From NCBI RefSeq assembly GCF_900143245.1, contig NZ_FRDK01000002.1, positions 372,001-436,000 on the forward strand: a stretch of DNA of 64,000 nucleotides. The letters are read 5' to 3'. Position 1 is the stretch's first letter. Each line of letters begins with the position of its first letter. This DNA is from Flavobacterium fryxellicola (GTDB lineage Bacteria > Bacteroidota > Bacteroidia > Flavobacteriales > Flavobacteriaceae). The position numbers and the translations under genes are program-made. Below the pieces are notes generated by a model. It ran no database searches. It had not been told where the DNA came from and was given only the letters and a program-made list of their open reading frames with translations. This document shows positions 5,076-13,801 of the stretch, piece after piece.

Positions 5076-5192
5076 TTTGTGCTACATAACTTGGCTAACG
5101 ATTACACACACTTTATCACAAAAAAACGTAAAAGAAATAAAAAGTCCATTTGATGATTTGTAAAGAATTATTTATATATTTGATTTTGGCAA

Positions 5193-5258
5193 TAAGTCTT
5201 ATTCTATCAGACTTATCCACCGGATTTAAGGTATATAAGTCTGATTTTGTCAGACCTA
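5193..5258. repeat. Two tandem TAAGTCTGA hairpins
   Basis: Two similar imperfect palindromes, TAAGTCT...AGACTTA at 5193-5215 and TAAGTCTGA...TCAGACCTA at 5236-5258, lie just before the cassette-like boundary at 5266. A third relative, AGTCTGAT...ATCAGAACT, lies near 11230. A possible -7 box (TATATTTG, 5175-5182) precedes them, but no well-spaced -33 box is visible. Confidence 0.5.
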
Positions 5259-5265
5259 TATGCAA

Positions 5266-5280
5266 GTTACCAGAAAGCAA
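5266..5280. repeat. Cassette-like left boundary of the DUF4268 gene
   Basis: GTTACCAGAAAGCAA here is the reverse complement, at 14 of 15 positions, of TTGCCTTCTGGTAAC at 6430-6444, just after the stop codon of the enclosed gene. Complementarity between a cassette's first bases and the inverse core site at its end is the hallmark of integron gene cassettes. Confidence 0.6.
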
Positions 5281-5313
5281 AATAAACCGCTTAAAATACA
5301 ACAACTAGAAAAT

Positions 5314-6426
5314 ATGTATCAAATTAATACTTTAACTAATAGAATTAAGGGATTAAAGAGAGTTAAGTTCTCTGAACACGGAATTAAAGAACGACAACAT
5401 TTACAAGAATGGCTTGCTAATGAACCTAAAGTTTTTGGAGGCGAAGATTTGTTAATAATTCAAAAAGAATTTAGTGGATTTAATGACACAAATGAAAGAT
5501 TAGATTTATTAGCTCTGGATAAATTTGGAAATATAGTTGTAATTGAAAATAAATTAGATGATACAGGCAAAAACGTAACTTGGCAAGCTCTAAAATACGC
5601 ATCATATTGCGCTACACTCAAGAAAGAAAATATCAAATCTATATTTCAAGATTATCTAAATAAACAGGGCGAAAATGACATTGCAGAAAACGTTTTGGCA
5701 GAATTCTACGATTTGGAATATGACGAAATATTACACTTAAATCAAGGGAATACACAAAGAATAATATTTGTTGCCAATGAATATAGAAAAGAAGTTACAT
5801 CTACCGTTTTTTGGCTTTTAAATTATAAAGTTAAAATACAATGTTTTAAAGTAACTCCATTTGCTCTTGACGAGCAAATGTTTTTGACAATGGAACAAAT
5901 AATACCACAGAAAGATTCTGAAGATTATATAATTAAAATGGCAGACAAAAATTATGAAGAAATTGCTACTCAAGAAGGTTTAAAAGATAGACATCATTGG
6001 AGATTAGAATTTTGGAATAAAATTTTGCCAATGCTAAAAGGAAAAACATCAATATTTCAAAACATTAGTCCAACTAAAGATTATTGGCTACACTCAACTG
6101 TGTTAGGTGTAAAATATACTTTAGTTATTACAAAATCATATTGTAGCGTTTTAGTTGAATTTACAAAACCAAATAAAGAAGATAATAAAAAAATGTTTGA
6201 TGATATTTTTAAATTTAAAGATGAGATTGAGAAAAGTTTTGGCAACGAGTTAACTTGGAATAGGTCTGATAATAAAATTAGTAGTCAAATAGGATTTTAC
6301 CAAACTGATGTAGATATTTTCAACAAACAAGATTGGGATAAAATGTTGCAGTTTCTATCATATAATATAATAAAACTCGAAGAAGCAACGAGAAATCCAC
6401 TTTCGAAAATTAGATCAACTCTATAA
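5314..6426 (+). CDS. PD-(D/E)XK-like protein with DUF4268 C-terminal domain
   Basis: The 370-residue product is cytoplasmic. Its N-terminal half carries a nuclease-like core: Asp64 in RLDLLALD, the E-N-K triad part in VVIENK (Glu78, Lys80), and a Gln helix WQALKYASY. This is the D...ExK...Q pattern of PD-(D/E)XK enzymes. The C-terminal ~140 residues (HHWRLEFWNKILPML to the end) match the DUF4268 type often fused to such domains. I chose the ATG at 5314; an in-frame ATG at 5260 would put the start outside the cassette boundary. Biological role is unknown; a defence role is an inference from fold and context. Confidence 0.75.
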   Translation: MYQINTLTNRIKGLKRVKFSEHGIKERQHLQEWLANEPKVFGGEDLLIIQKEFSGFNDTNERLDLLALDKFGNIVVIENKLDDTGKNVTWQALKYASYCATLKKENIKSIFQDYLNKQGENDIAENVLAEFYDLEYDEILHLNQGNTQRIIFVANEYRKEVTSTVFWLLNYKVKIQCFKVTPFALDEQMFLTMEQIIPQKDSEDYIIKMADKNYEEIATQEGLKDRHHWRLEFWNKILPMLKGKTSIFQNISPTKDYWLHSTVLGVKYTLVITKSYCSVLVEFTKPNKEDNKKMFDDIFKFKDEIEKSFGNELTWNRSDNKISSQIGFYQTDVDIFNKQDWDKMLQFLSYNIIKLEEATRNPLSKIRSTL

Positions 6427-6436
6427 AGATTGCCTT

Positions 6437-6571
6437 CTGGTAACACACGCTAAATCGAGATTGCCAAATATGCCGTAGCGAGAACATTACAATTCACGAA
6501 TAAAATCTATCTTGCCGAAAGTTCTCAGTTCGCTATCAGTGGCATCCTCGTTTAGCGCGCGAACGTTGTAA
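6437..6571 (+). other. attC-like recombination site between two cassette-like genes
   Basis: The segment starts with CTGGTAAC and ends with GTTGTAA. Between them CGCTAAATCGAGATTGCC (about 6448-6465) pairs with GGCATCCTCGTTTAGCG (6541-6557), leaving one unpaired T and a short mismatch. Inside is a second partial stem, TAGCGAGAAC / GTTCTCAGTTCGCTA. An outer AAC/GTT core, an inner imperfect stem with an extrahelical base and a variable terminal structure make up the architecture of attC sites. The seven-base boxes do not fit the strict RYYYAAC/GTTRRRY consensus. Confidence 0.5.
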
Positions 6572-6590
6572 GTAAGCTAAAAAAAAACAA

Positions 6591-7481
6591 ATGATACACG
6601 AATTAATAACCGACATAGCATACGACCGAATAACTGTTGCTCAAGGTTTAACCAGAGCAAAATTGATAGCGAATCAAATTAAAAATGACACTTTTAAAAA
6701 TTGGCTATCAAAAGAATTGAATGGATATACTAACGATGATAAAATTTTACCTGAATACAGAAAAGTTTGGTCAGAAATAGAACTCACAGCTGAATTCCCT
6801 TATGGACAGATAAGAACATTTCCTGTTGTACTTCCAGATCACGAAGACGAAACTATGAAAGATTTGATTTATCATCATCGTTTTATTGAACCAATTTATA
6901 TAGTAGAACAGAACATAGCGGAAATGGACGGCAGTTCTGGATCTATAAATTTACCAGGCGGAATGGTAAGAATTCTTGCCGGATTTTATGACTCAATCAA
7001 AAGACAAGGAGGACAAATTAGAAGTGCGCATAGGACTGTTGGAAAGTCACAATTACAAAACATCGTTCAAGTAACAAAACAAAAACTATTGGACACGTTG
7101 CAAGAACTAGAAAACCAGTTTCCGCAAATAGATAAAAACTATATTATGAATGAAGATAATAAGGAAAAGGCTCAAAATATAATTACAAATAATATTTACG
7201 GAAACAACAATCCATTTAATGTTGCTGCTGGAGAAAATATTACGCAAGGAAATATTAATCTAACCATAAATGAAGAACAAAAAACAAAATTAAAAGAACT
7301 TGGCATCGAGGAAGAGTCATTAAAGGAACTAGAAATAATTGACGTAGAGAATCCAAAAGGAACACTAAAAAGAAAAGAAAAAATAATGGGATGGCTTGGT
7401 AAGATAACTGCATCGTTAGCATCTAGAGGTATTTATGATAATATTCCTAAACTGATTGAATTTGTAGGAACATTAACGTAG
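6591..7481 (+). CDS. AbiTii domain protein, candidate abortive-infection gene
   Basis: The 296-residue protein has no signal peptide or membrane segment. Residues ~1-190 match the AbiTii domain found in phage-defence genes, with typical stretches LTRAKLIANQIKNDTFKNWL and KELNGY. A linker with NNIYGNNNPFNVAAGENITQ follows; N/G-rich motifs of this kind are common in such proteins. The C-terminal ~60 residues (GWLGKITASLASRGIYDNIP) form a separate amphipathic module. The gene lies between complementary ends GTTGTAA (6565) and TTACAAC (7492), next to a nuclease-like gene. The domain match is from memory of the family; function in phage resistance is inferred. Confidence 0.75.
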   Translation: MIHELITDIAYDRITVAQGLTRAKLIANQIKNDTFKNWLSKELNGYTNDDKILPEYRKVWSEIELTAEFPYGQIRTFPVVLPDHEDETMKDLIYHHRFIEPIYIVEQNIAEMDGSSGSINLPGGMVRILAGFYDSIKRQGGQIRSAHRTVGKSQLQNIVQVTKQKLLDTLQELENQFPQIDKNYIMNEDNKEKAQNIITNNIYGNNNPFNVAAGENITQGNINLTINEEQKTKLKELGIEEESLKELEIIDVENPKGTLKRKEKIMGWLGKITASLASRGIYDNIPKLIEFVGTLT

Positions 7482-7485
7482 AAAA

Positions 7486-7498
7486 GCCTATTTACAAC
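7486..7498. repeat. Cassette-like right boundary of the AbiTii gene
   Basis: GCCTATTTACAAC is the reverse complement of GTTGTAAGTAAGC (6565-6577) at 11 of 13 positions, including an exact core of seven. It begins five bases after the stop codon. The stretch that follows to ~7620 is GC-rich and repetitive (CGAACGAAC words) and may be the rest of this site. Confidence 0.55.
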
Positions 7499-7660
7499 AG
7501 ATAGGGTTTCGTTGCGTTCGCCACGGCGAACGAACACCCGAGCGACAGCGAACGAACGAAGTAATGAACCCGCGGTTGAATCCTCCGCGGCGGACAGGCT
7601 GGAACCGTTTACATGCCGTCAACACTATGGAGTTATCGTAAAGTATTGATATAGAATTTC

Positions 7661-7688
7661 AAGAGGCAAGTGAGCCTCTTTTTTTTTG
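7661..7688 (+). terminator. Rho-independent terminator downstream of the AbiTii gene
   Basis: AAGAGGC pairs with GCCTCTT around a six-base loop and is followed by a run of nine or more T. Confidence 0.8.
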
Positions 7689-7709
7689 CAGTATAAAGTA
7701 CTGTTTTTT

Positions 7710-7915
7710 TTAAATCTTTATTGAACTTCGATGTCCATTCAGATAACCATAAAAATAGATTTTAAGAAACAGCTTAGTGTCAAAACTGGGGCGGCCTTCG
7801 GATTTTATAATTTGTACCGTAAAACCAAGTGCTTCAAGGGAGATGTTATATGCAAAAGCTTCAATCAAACAAACGGGATTAAACAAGTAGAAATTATCCT
7901 CTAAACTGCCTATTT
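7710..7915 (-). pseudogene. IS1182-family transposase, N-terminal remnant
   Basis: Read on the minus strand, the stretch 7903 to 7710 translates to a segment containing NPVCLIEAFAYNISLEALGF, then SEGRPSFDTKLFLKIYFYG and YLNGHRSS, ending in a stop. This is the characteristic N-terminal region of IS1182-type DDE transposases (L-I-D-A-F ... L-G-F ... G-R-P ... L-K-L-Y-x-Y-G-Y-L-N-x-I-R-S-S). The start, the catalytic core and the rest of the element are missing, and a stop lies directly upstream of the fragment. It is a dead fragment left by an old insertion, between the AbiTii and DUF6544 genes. Confidence 0.75.
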
Positions 7916-7996
7916 ATAACTGTTGACGCGATGTTTCGGATATATGTCGCATCCTTAAATGTACAAATTTTCTCTCTTACATTCAAAATAAAATCT

Positions 7997-8004
7997 TACA
8001 TTTG
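7997..8004 (+). promoter_or_regulatory. Possible -7 box for the DUF6544 gene
   Basis: TACATTTG fits TAnnTTTG and lies 81 bases before the ATG at 8085, upstream of the cassette-like boundary. No clear -33 TTTG is found at the right spacing. Confidence 0.3.
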
Positions 8005-8039
8005 TTAGAAACAAAACGGATTTTTTTTCACAGACTGAC

Positions 8040-8054
8040 GTTATCGGTAACCTT
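8040..8054. repeat. Cassette-like left boundary of the DUF6544 gene
   Basis: GTTATCGG at 8040-8047 is exactly complementary to CCGATAAC at 9185-9192. The next bases (TAACCTT against AAGGCAG) match again after three mismatches, giving 12 of 15. Confidence 0.55.
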
Positions 8055-8084
8055 AAACAACACGATACGAAGGGATAAAACCAA

Positions 8085-9173
8085 ATGATTATGAGAATAT
8101 TTTTTGTGATACTAATAGTCATTCACGGACTGATTCACTTGATGGGTTTTGCAAAAGCATTTGACTTTGGAACTATCACTCAACTATCCAAAGAAATTTC
8201 TAAACCATTGGGCGTTCTTTGGCTGACAGCATTTTTGTTATTCCTATTATCAGCGATTTTATTTTTCTTAAAAAAAGAAGAATGGTGGATAATTAGTATA
8301 ATAGCAGTAATTGTTTCTCAAATACTAATTATTACAGTTTGGCAAGACGCAAAGTTTGGAACAATCGCTAATATTTTAATTGCTGCAGTTGCTGTTTTGA
8401 CATGGGGAAGCATCAGCTTTGAAAAGAGTTTCGTCAATGATAAAAATGAAAATATAATCCGAACAACTATAATTTCACAAGAAATTTTAACTGAGACAGA
8501 TATAAAAACATTACCTAAACCTGTGCAACATTACCTAAAATATGTTGGCGTGATGAATAAACCAAAAGTTAAAAATGTAAGAATTGTATTTGAAGGACAG
8601 ATGAGAGATAAGGGGAAGGACTATTTCCCATTTACCTCTGAACAGTTTAACTTTTTTGACGAACCAACAAGACTTTTCTATATGAAAGCAAAAATTTTTG
8701 GTGTATCGGCTCTTGGTTATCATAAATACAGTGATACTAAGGCATCAATGGACATAAGGCTTTTTGGACTTTTCCCAATTGTTAAAAAATCGGGAGACAT
8801 TATGAACAAAGCTGAAACTGTTACTCTATTTAATGATATGTGTTTACTTGCTCCAGCAACATTAATTGACAAAAGAATACAATGGGAATCAATAAATGAC
8901 ACGTTAGTAAAAGCGACTTTTACAAACAAAAAAATATCTATTACAGCAGCTTTGTACTTTAATCAACAAGGACAATTGGTTGACTTTATTTCAAACGACA
9001 GAACATCAATTACAGATATGAAACAATATCCATTTTCAACCCCAGTTTCAGAATACAAAATTATAAATGGATATAATTTAATGTCAAAAGCAGAAGCGGT
9101 TTGGGACTACACTGACGGGAAATTTACTTATGGGAAATTTATACTTAAAGAAATTGAATATAACATAAAGTAG
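8085..9173 (+). CDS. DUF6544 family membrane protein
   Basis: This 362-residue protein has four N-terminal hydrophobic segments (about residues 4-22, 42-61, 67-84 and 91-108) followed by a ~240-residue soluble part. That part carries the DUF6544 signature words KPVQHYLKYVGVMNKP, FNFFDEPTRLFYMKAKIFGV and IRLFGLFPIV. Function is unknown. The ATG at 8091 is a possible alternative start (MRIFFVILIVIHG). It lies alone between cassette-like ends. Confidence 0.75.
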   Translation: MIMRIFFVILIVIHGLIHLMGFAKAFDFGTITQLSKEISKPLGVLWLTAFLLFLLSAILFFLKKEEWWIISIIAVIVSQILIITVWQDAKFGTIANILIAAVAVLTWGSISFEKSFVNDKNENIIRTTIISQEILTETDIKTLPKPVQHYLKYVGVMNKPKVKNVRIVFEGQMRDKGKDYFPFTSEQFNFFDEPTRLFYMKAKIFGVSALGYHKYSDTKASMDIRLFGLFPIVKKSGDIMNKAETVTLFNDMCLLAPATLIDKRIQWESINDTLVKATFTNKKISITAALYFNQQGQLVDFISNDRTSITDMKQYPFSTPVSEYKIINGYNLMSKAEAVWDYTDGKFTYGKFILKEIEYNIK

Positions 9174-9233
9174 AAGAAAGGCAGCCGATAACAGATATGA
9201 GTTCGTTGGGCTTGAAAAGCCAAAAATGAATCC

Positions 9234-10015
9234 CGATCGCGCGGATTTGTAATCCGTGCTCGTTCCAACTGGGTTTTTCTAAATTATTTTAAGCCTTTTT
9301 ACTGCTATAAATTAACTTTGATCATTTACAAACCATATTATAAAATCCCGCCCGCGCGGATTTGCAATCCGTGCCCATTCCAACAGCGTTTTTCTAAATT
9401 ATTTTAAGTCTATTTAATGATTCAAATTATATTTGATCATTTATAGACATTTTATAAAACCCCGTTCCATAAAGTATTCCTGATTACACATAAATTTTTC
9501 GTAATGCTGCACAAATGCCGCTAGCTTTGCGCATTTTCATGAACTTTTTATTAAAACAAGACGCGATAAAGTGGCTGACTTTTGTTTTGACCCCTATAAA
9601 ACAAGAGTATTATTCTAAATTTCGATTTTTAATTACGCTGTTAATTTTTTCATCATTATTAGGTGTTTACCAGAGTTCCATTTCACCCCGATAGCGCGGA
9701 TTTGCAATCCGTGCCCACAACTATAAGACATAATAAAAAGAAGATACTAAATATGATTGCTTCGTTCCTTGCAATGACTCAGTAACCCGATAGCGCGGAT
9801 TTGCAATCCGTGCCCACAACAATAAACACTTTATCAAAAGAAAATATTAAATGTGATAGCTTCATTCCTGGCAATGACTCAGTAACCCGATAGCGCGGAT
9901 TTGCAATCCGTGCCCACAACAATAAACACTTTATCAAAAGAAAATATTAAATGTGATAGCTTCGTTCTTTGCAATGACTCCGTAATTCGACAGTGCGGAT
10001 TTGCAATCCGTGCCC
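9234..10015. repeat. Array of six REP-like hairpins with TTTGYAA core
   Basis: CGGATTTGCAATCCG, or the TTTGTAA variant, occurs at 9242-9256, 9357-9371, 9697-9711, 9796-9810, 9896-9910 and 9996-10010. The first two lie in ~115 bp units that share GTTTTTCTAAATTATTTTAAG. The last four lie in near-identical ~100 bp units with starts exactly 99 to 100 bases apart, sharing ATAAACACTTTATCAAAAG and GCAATGACTC in the closer copies. Hairpins of this sequence are the REP type that RAYT transposases mobilise in Bacteroidota; no RAYT gene is in the window. Confidence 0.85.
9506..9585. repeat. ~80 bp dispersed repeat, copy A
   Basis: The copy begins GCTGCACAAATGCCGCTAGC, with arms TGCACAAA and TTTGCGCA forming a hairpin, and ends AAAGTGGCTGACTTTT. 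It is clearly related to copies B (12124-12200) and C (12633-12710). Confidence 0.7.
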
Positions 10016-10060
10016 ATTACAAATGGATTTGTCACTATTTTCACCGTACTGTTTTCAATT

Positions 10061-12763: not shown

Positions 12764-13197
12764 ATGAAAAAAGTATTATTTGCACTTTTACTATTATTTT
12801 CATTCAGCGTAAATGCTCAACAAAATATAAATGAAATTAAGAAAGATGCATTACAAATTATTAAGAAAATTAATTTCGAATATAAAAATGGAAGTCTAAC
12901 CACAGAACAAATCTCTGAACTCTTTTGTAAAAAAATTTATTATTCTGTTTGAGATAGAGGAGACTATGATGATAACTATTTGATTCAAAATCAAAAAATT
13001 TTAAAGAAACTGTTACTTTATTAAACTTTCACAAACTAAAAAAAAGCAGAATAACTTTCCATGAAGAGAGTCAAGAATATACATTAAGCTATCAATTAGT
13101 CAGGCCTACAGCCAAATTTGAAGGTTCGAGCGCTTTAGTGAGTTTTATAATAGAAAATGGAAAACTTAAATTGTACAGTATTCAAACAATTCCATAA
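12764..13197 (+). pseudogene. Exported protein of unknown family, broken by a stop and a frameshift
   Basis: The ATG at 12764 opens a clean signal peptide (MKKVLFALLLLFSFSVNAQ) and ~62 residues, ending at TGA 12950-12952. Reading through that codon gives DRGDYDDNYLI. The sequence then continues in another frame with SKNFKETVTLLNFHKLKKSR and YTLSYQLVRPTAKFEGSSAL, ending IQTIP at 13197. The intact product would be a ~143-residue periplasmic protein with a beta-rich end. I do not recognise the family. Confidence 0.65.
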
Positions 13198-13306
13198 ATA
13201 CAATACAGATCACAGCTAAAGTCTTAGTGCATACGCACCATAAATAATAACACCGTAATAACGCAACCAAATACTCTTTTTGTTATATTTATAAAAACAT
13301 TTCGCA

Positions 13307-13798
13307 ATGAAAAAAATAGTACTTCTCCTGCTGGTTTCATTCTCGTTCAGTTCTTGCTGGCCAACGACTGATAATCGAGATTTTATAAATGAAAATTACA
13401 AACCTATCATTGTAGAACGAAGCGTACTTGAAAACTCCATTGCGTTTCAAAGTTCACAACCCGTAATTAAATCAGGAAAAATATATATAAAAGACGATTT
13501 GATGTTTGTAAACGACGTAAACAAAGGATTTCATGTTTACGATTATGCAGATCCGAAAAATCCAATCCGGATGCACTTTATAAAAGCACCGGGTGCCACT
13601 GACTTGGCGATTAGAGACAATACCATGTACATCAATCAAGCAGTAGATTTAGTAACGGCAACGTACAATCCTGCAACAAAAAAATTCCTAGTAACGAACA
13701 GAAACAGAAATGTTTTTCCACAAAAGCAAGCCCCAAACGGCTTATATGGCTACACCAAAGAAAATGAAATTATAATCGATTGGACTTTAATCAAGTAA
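13307..13798 (+). CDS. Lipoprotein with LVIVD-like repeats
   Basis: This 163-residue protein has a lipoprotein signal (MKKIVLLLLVSFSFSSC, Cys17 as the lipidated residue). The mature part contains the repeat-like phrases GKIYIKDDLMFVNDVNKGFH and YDYADPKNPIRMHFIK, typical of LVIVD/beta-propeller surface proteins. It is short for a propeller. Three bases separate it from the next, similar gene, so the pair is an operon and may work together at the outer membrane. Ligand unknown. Confidence 0.7.
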   Translation: MKKIVLLLLVSFSFSSCWPTTDNRDFINENYKPIIVERSVLENSIAFQSSQPVIKSGKIYIKDDLMFVNDVNKGFHVYDYADPKNPIRMHFIKAPGATDLAIRDNTMYINQAVDLVTATYNPATKKFLVTNRNRNVFPQKQAPNGLYGYTKENEIIIDWTLIK

Positions 13799-13801
13799 CA
13801 C

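Follow-up and report, generated by a model that had tools for sequence, protein, structure and literature searches.

Gene cassettes of Flavobacterium fryxellicola point to a possible second kind of integron in the Bacteroidia

Introduction

Why are three consecutive genes of a flavobacterium each bracketed by their own complementary GTT...AAC ends? The genes, which encode a DUF4268, an AbiTii and a DUF6544 protein, lie in a stretch of 64,000 nucleotides (nt) of Flavobacterium fryxellicola (assembly GCF_900143245.1, contig NZ_FRDK01000002.1, positions 372,001 to 436,000), called here the window. A sequence-only reading had taken them for integron-like cassettes, possibly of a related but distinct gene-capture system, and this is now supported by the layout of the locus, by cassette arrays in related loci and by a recombinase that is not IntI. 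We read the system as an integron of a kind for which we met no description, widespread in the class Bacteroidia, that does not qualify as an IntI integron.

Integrons are on record for the phylum in the portions of PMC8618304 and PMC2426708 cited here, and for Bacteroidetes proper the relevant part of one survey gives only lone integrases, as earlier finds, and one complete integron, that of Salinibacter (PMC9024848). The full-text, open-licence literature of PubMed Central (PMC), with bioRxiv not covered, returned no description of the present system, which is weak evidence of absence.

Results

The array in the window

The three complementary end pairs stand where they had been reported, with 14 of 15, 11 of 13 and 8 of 8 positions matching; in the third, the eight matches are followed by three mismatches (positions 9–11) and then by four further matches (12–15). 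Among the 59 open reading frames (ORFs) of at least 100 amino acids (aa) in the window, the three genes rank first to third for complementarity of these arms, with 11, 9 and 9 of 11 scored positions (the score excludes arm position 11), and the next ORFs reach 8 and then 6. The parts of the locus are as follows; R1 is a covariance model of attC sites described below.

5137..5163, forward strand: 3′ remnant of an integrase gene (IKSPFDDL and stop), the last eight residues being identical to those of an intact 347-aa recombinase
5164..5265, forward strand: attI-like inverted repeat ending TATATGCAA just 5′ of GTT, a layout common to 18 other loci
5175..5182, forward strand: promoter-like box TATATTTG, a TAnnTTTG match and candidate cassette promoter
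5266..6444, forward strand: cassette 1, DUF4268 gene, arms 14/15, ORF end 6426, likely start 5314
6445..6564, forward strand: attC1, a 120-nt hairpin site, scoring 63.6 bits with R1 while being among its 46 training rows
6565..7498, forward strand: cassette 2, AbiTii gene, arms 11/13, ORF 6591–7481
7499..7660 (right limit uncertain), forward strand: attC2, apparently interrupted, with an AGATA start and then a GGGTTTCG...GAACCC-kind repeat
7722..8037, reverse strand: remnant of an IS1182-like element at an attC core, right end TTTTCACAGACTG at 8025–8037
8040..9192, forward strand: cassette 3, DUF6544 gene (Pfam), ORF 8085–9173
9193..9232 (limits uncertain), forward strand: attC3 remnant, by its sequence apparently truncated by short palindromic repeats

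The window had been described as free of an integrase. This holds for an intact gene, but the last eight codons and the stop of one remain, followed by the attI-like site. The product of cassette 1 matches Pfam DUF4268 and the PADLOC candidate defence family PDC-S11, and that of cassette 2 matches AbiTii in both Pfam (3.1e-28) and PADLOC (2.4e-29). The inner stem of attC1 is weak in a joint arm-plus-stem score, and BLAST finds two further copies of this element 3′ of other genes in the same genome. attC2 and attC3 look damaged and neither gave an R1 match at E≤0.1; a start resembling that of attC2 is also seen in locus L072. Several short palindromic repeats of the CGCGGATTTGCAATCCGTGC type lie 3′ of the last cassette (9230–10020).

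In the strictest joint arm-plus-stem scan the window's own cassettes give no forward match, and we take the single reverse match (13012–13799) for chance. What weighs most for the cassette reading of the window is the evidence of related loci, with 94 cassettes chained from attI-like sites, and the recurrence of the attC element behind other genes of this genome. The integron reading of the three units is largely right, and we are confident that the three genes are cassettes of a decayed integron-like array with an attI-like site and an integrase tail.

The recombinase and its attI-like site

A look for a tyrosine recombinase elsewhere in the genome had been suggested, and one was found as an intact gene of 347 aa on another contig (G000:C18:184724-185764), directly upstream of an attI and five cassettes; it is the candidate integrase. 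Such a recombinase was first met in the neighbour locus L015, directly upstream of its array, and the homologue on C18 was then found. A pattern search of the same genome, allowing up to three mismatches, placed further tail-plus-attI remnants apparently at G000:C18:89709 and, decayed, at C29:365429. Of 150 genus genomes, 71 carry homologues at E≤1e-70, that of F. fryxellicola among them.

All 17 aligned recombinases keep R204, K229, H294, R297, H320 and Y329, which we take to be the catalytic R, K, H, R, H and Y. They also share an N-terminal domain of about 70 residues (1–72); in other relatives the match begins near residue 73–78, and the frame in genome G548 has 290 residues only. The AlphaFold model has a predicted local distance difference test score (pLDDT) of 82 and a predicted template modelling score (pTM) of 0.65, and the nearest solved structures in sequence and fold searches are XerA (5hxy), the archaeal 4a8e and IntI4 (2a3v). 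A HARP-like nature of the N-terminal domain was considered and is not claimed, the Pfam scan being empty there and the fold matches spanning residues 69–336.

Is this recombinase an IntI? It scores 193 bits against the TIGR02249 integron-integrase cut-off of 265. In IntI the stretch between the KDR and HxxRH motifs holds the I2 region; 36 of 36 array-linked integrases have 58–63 residues between these motifs, and the aligned stretch that holds I2 takes 113 residues in all 11 IntI rows versus 71–72 here, about 41 fewer. In a tree of 95 rows the 11 IntI rows lie on one side of a branch supported at 100/99 with all 36 array-linked rows outside, and the same-genus integrases fall beside those of named Flavobacterium; this tree has a midpoint root only, 59 of 80 named loci having been put forward and 95 of 98 rows having passed a minimum length of 240 residues. 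Judged by alignment and tree, the recombinase is not IntI: it does not fall within the IntI clade, and the I2 region is missing from it. A TIGR02249 match in the same genome, L002 on contig C13, was dropped as the integrase; it sits in an element that is presumably of IS91 type, has its own tyrosine recombinase and adjoins two attC sites.

Within the genus the recombinase stop is followed by what is usually a promoter-like box, then by the inverted-repeat attI and then by up to 17 cassettes in the direction of the recombinase. In 17 of 20 loci a TAnnTTTG box, presumably the Bacteroidetes promoter consensus, is found no more than 45 nt from the integrase stop, as against 3% of mononucleotide shuffles. 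A TATA..C[AT]A/GTT-type junction, with variants, follows the stop in 18 of 20 fetched loci, the exceptions being L077, which is interrupted at the junction, and L080, which stops at a contig edge. From stop to GTT there are 95–105 nt at 19 of 19 measured sites (18 loci and the window), a range that becomes 95–104 nt once the window and L082 are shifted by 3 nt for the counting of the stop. The inverted repeat is uneven in strength, with folding z from −1.1 to −8.2 (mean −4.3, window −2.5). On this layout we regard the site as a candidate attI, lying beside the integrase gene and probably the starting point of cassettes.

Cassettes and their arms

Chaining from attI, applied to 22 loci, gave 94 cassettes in 15 of them, with a longest run of 17. 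Arm pairing was counted in 91 of them, three having been dropped beforehand, and arms had helped to select these 91. They pair over positions 1–9 (97–100% at positions 4–9), in 71% at position 10 and in 84–96% at 12–15, and pairing breaks off sharply from position 16 on (20–30% at 16–20). Position 11 is never paired, and at the cassette start it is A in 91 of 91. This A11 rule survives selection by the inner stem only: among 76 pairs so picked, in 12 loci chosen for holding arrays, pairing is 75–84% at positions 4–9, 5% at 11, 68–79% at 12–15 and 18–30% at 16–20, with A11 in 73. The canonical integron core has the consensus GTTRRRY / RYYYAAC. Here the core is GTTR in 91 of 91 cassettes, with G (44), T (36) or C (11) at position 5, and does not follow GTTRRRY.

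A strict scan returned 71 units in 228 kilobases (kb) of 19 array loci, as against one in 455 kb of resampled sequence and none in 140 kb of seven random chromosome control loci; the scan is symmetric, and the opposite reading also yields 72 units. The longest ORF is co-oriented with the array in 84 of 87 cassettes (median coding share 0.91), and seven further cassettes are without an ORF of 50 aa. The 84 cassette proteins of L066–L085 are diverse. Among the Pfam matches are RES in two of them and, in one each, NERD, a PIN-like domain, the integron cassette protein Hfx_Cass5 and a type VI secretion system (T6SS) immunity domain; PADLOC matches include PDC-M11A, PDC-M63B and LmuA, again one each.

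attC sites and their distribution

The attC sites are hairpins of about 110–120 nt with strong covariation in both stems. In circular form the bottom strand folds better in 78 of 78 distinct sites (mean −32.1 versus −27.9), 16 of 94 having been removed first by a length filter and as one duplicate. A single inner stem of about 20 positions, with no gap, is common to 84 of 90 sites, and inner-stem position 15 is A in all 84. The extrahelical bases expected of attC did not appear in column counts, but the chain score favoured ungapped stems.

The covariance model R1 was built on 46 rows, namely 45 of 70 listed attC sites and the window's attC1. An attC-model search had been suggested, and R1 finds 23 sites in this genome at E≤0.1, four of them training sites; the seven control loci gave no match. 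R1 matches 132 of 150 genus genomes (120 of 138 when training genomes are set aside) and 245 of 395 genomes of the class, which represent 131 of 196 genera, with sites counted up to 22 per genome in the genus and up to 8 in the class. Genomes that carry the integrase are richer in attC, with a median of 18 versus 5, or 11 versus 5 without the 12 training genomes (p 3e-4).

The same element recurs in other contexts. BLAST of attC1 gave matches in 10 of 150 genus genomes at E≤0.01, F. fryxellicola included and some of them short, and next to these or to similar elements stand other genes, each bracketed by a GTT/AAC pair of its own. R1 later matched 9 of the 11 loci of this first DNA search (L010–L020), the other two (L016 and L018) being probably chance. 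As for the cassette genes themselves, relatives of the DUF4268 gene occur in two other genomes of the 150 (E≤1e-60), with no attC-model match in the fetched loci.

Beyond the genus we used loci from named records, the best 80 of at least 590 stretches. R1 gave 45 matches in 17 of them, 44 lying downstream of the recombinase on its strand, and none in L159–L199. Positive loci include those of Flavobacterium aciduliphilum, Algoriphagus ornithinivorans, Algibacter onchidii, Winogradskyella ursingii, Seonamhaeicola aphaedonensis, Zunongwangia mangrovi and Alkalitalea saponilacus. With looser scan criteria, these named loci show 28 units in 365 kb downstream versus 4 in 463 kb upstream of the integrase.

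Insertion elements at attC sites

IS1111-attC elements are insertion sequences that home to attC sites. Here the element is IS1182-like, and its insertion point is the ACGT within the attC core, which is apparently duplicated in some copies. Its TTTTCACAGACTG end lies directly 5′ of [AG]CGTT[AG] in 9 of 9 genome copies (window 8025–8037; L215–L223 on contigs C19, C26, C29 and C33). Two of three distinct left ends read ...ACGT directly followed by CAGGCTGTGAA, which suggests a target duplication of ACGT, and the element seems, from these junctions, to home to the attC core. The remnant in the window has a 67.8% match to a plasmid region annotated as transposase. Among the 20 listed of 40 matching records in the plasmid collection, this is one and the 19 others correspond to the DUF4268 part; the phage collection gave no match to window 5100–7500. 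A GGGTTTCGTTGCG...GAACCC-kind repeat is present at window 7515–7590 and in L072 near 2643–2687, and appears to have been inserted into attC sites of the two genomes at an identical point.

Discussion

In our reading the system behaves as an integron does, probably in the following way. The tyrosine recombinase, whose gene directly precedes attI where the platform is intact, would capture circular cassettes at attI with a crossover probably at its GTT, and the same recombinase would excise them. It would recognise attC as a folded single strand, presumably the bottom one, since the arms vary in sequence while the fold, the GTT/AAC ends and an A at two fixed positions are conserved. Incoming cassettes would be placed behind the candidate promoter that follows the integrase stop and might be expressed from there. 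The layout, conservation, structure, covariation, orientation and recombinase linkage are established at the level of sequence, and we infer that the adjacent recombinase, rather than another, is the actor. We lean towards the view that this is a second kind of integron, widespread in Bacteroidia, in which folded single-stranded attC sites are recombined by a tyrosine recombinase without I2.

How does it relate to known systems? It shares with IntI integrons an integrase gene with an adjoining attI, a box resembling a promoter, cassettes that hold one ORF each and run one way, attC hairpins whose variable arms covary and which favour the bottom strand, and similar attC sites within some arrays. 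It differs in its integrase, which does not belong to the IntI clade, has no I2 region, is co-directional with the cassettes and has attI just past its stop, in that attI is an inverted repeat with variable arms, and in the 15-nt arms with a fixed unpaired A11 and a GTTR rather than GTTRRRY core. Taken alone, the window segment resembles a CALIN, an attC cluster without integrase as the consulted part of PMC9024848 has it, being an array without an intact integrase; however, it retains attI and the tail of an integrase gene, and an intact copy of the platform stands elsewhere in this genome. XerA is among the nearest solved structures of the recombinase, but unlike XerA/XerCD-type enzymes the present one is linked to attI and cassette arrays and has an N-terminal domain in the aligned members. 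Xer/dif modules (pdif) would have 28-bp dif-like sites at the gene ends; the ends seen here are 15-nt arms that differ between cassettes.

Arms longer than six or seven nt had been put forward as a mark of a possibly distinct system, and by itself this does not hold. Clear canonical IntI arrays were obtained by chain search in 3 of 12 loci of the phylum (L109 with 12 cassettes, L112 and L118 with 6 each), and their uninterrupted arms are mostly 10–14 nt (range 6–15), so arm length alone is not diagnostic. The same search found three new-type cassettes in L111. The inner stem was no guide to the canonical arrays, with 2 pairs in the 12 loci. The distinguishing marks are the A11 geometry (a 15-nt arm with an invariant unpaired A), the integrase and attI.

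Several observations weigh against our interpretation. The recombinase is without the I2 region, which the cited portion of PMC7790495 holds necessary for IntI cassette capture; there, I2 and single-strand recombination are treated as exclusive to integron integrases, with I2 as the most parsimonious cause and direct proof lacking. Recombination itself is inferred from the sequences. The array-linked integrases do not fall on one side of a single tree branch, the promoter box is absent from 3 of 20 loci, L069 has no chained cassette, 6 of 22 loci have no match to the attI pattern used, and one R1 match (L136) lies upstream on the opposite strand. Mean attC identity is higher within loci than between them (0.73 versus 0.52), unlike in L073 and L075, where it is below 0.52. 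R1 was trained on this very group, window attC1 included, with sites from 12 genus genomes, and it scores five sites at 25–34 bits in the canonical IntI loci L109, L111 and L112. Finally, 64 of 79 genus genomes without an integrase at E≤1e-70 keep attC sites, so the linkage is loose; such genomes may hold more distant integrases or remnants.

Could these be ordinary integron cassettes, built and moved by a canonical IntI in trans or since lost, with the adjacent recombinase a bystander? The attC hairpins share the general attC plan, attC sites also occur in genomes without a close new-type integrase, and canonical IntI is common elsewhere in the phylum, being over the TIGR02249 cut-off in 105 of 395 phylum genomes, so the search can find IntI; among the 107 phylum genomes with a listed match at E≤1e-60, G577 is the one marked as belonging to the window's class. 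Yet 0 of 397 family genomes have an IntI over this cut-off, while arrays of up to 17 cassettes start from an attI fixed to the stop of the other recombinase. G548, from outside the class, would fit the bystander explanation with an IntI whose C-terminus looks frameshifted and three new-type cassettes, but it also carries a new-type recombinase (51% identical) with attC downstream on its strand. The arm geometry, moreover, is unlike that of the three canonical arrays read, and we consider this explanation unlikely.

That each gene is instead a small transposon, or a unit like a miniature inverted-repeat transposable element (MITE), with its own terminal inverted repeats would agree with the inverted ends of every gene and with the insertion sequence and short repeats present. 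We hold it very improbable: the ends differ among units yet share GTT/AAC and the A11 rule, and the units stand head to tail in one direction, with attC sites of about 110–120 nt between them and a fixed start at attI. Chance complementarity in AT-rich intergenic DNA, raised by the sequence-only reading itself as a caution, is hardly credible. Short GTT/AAC pairs are common, and cassette 3 alone (8/8) would be weak; in the seven random regions (140 kb) looser criteria do give a few chance pairs, a further point to be held against us, but strict units and attC-model matches are absent there, the three genes occupy ranks 1–3 among 59 ORFs, and A stands at position 11 in 91 of 91.

If the reading of a second integron kind is true, single-strand cassette capture would be independent of I2, being either older than IntI or of more than one origin. 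The platform site attI, too, may be recognised in folded form, as an inverted repeat. With a recombinase that has no I2 and is tied to attI and long attC arrays, the I2 requirement becomes directly testable. Integrons would then be common in the class, given attC-model matches in 245 of its 395 genomes. The cassettes amount to a large and little-known gene pool, with candidate phage-defence genes in it.

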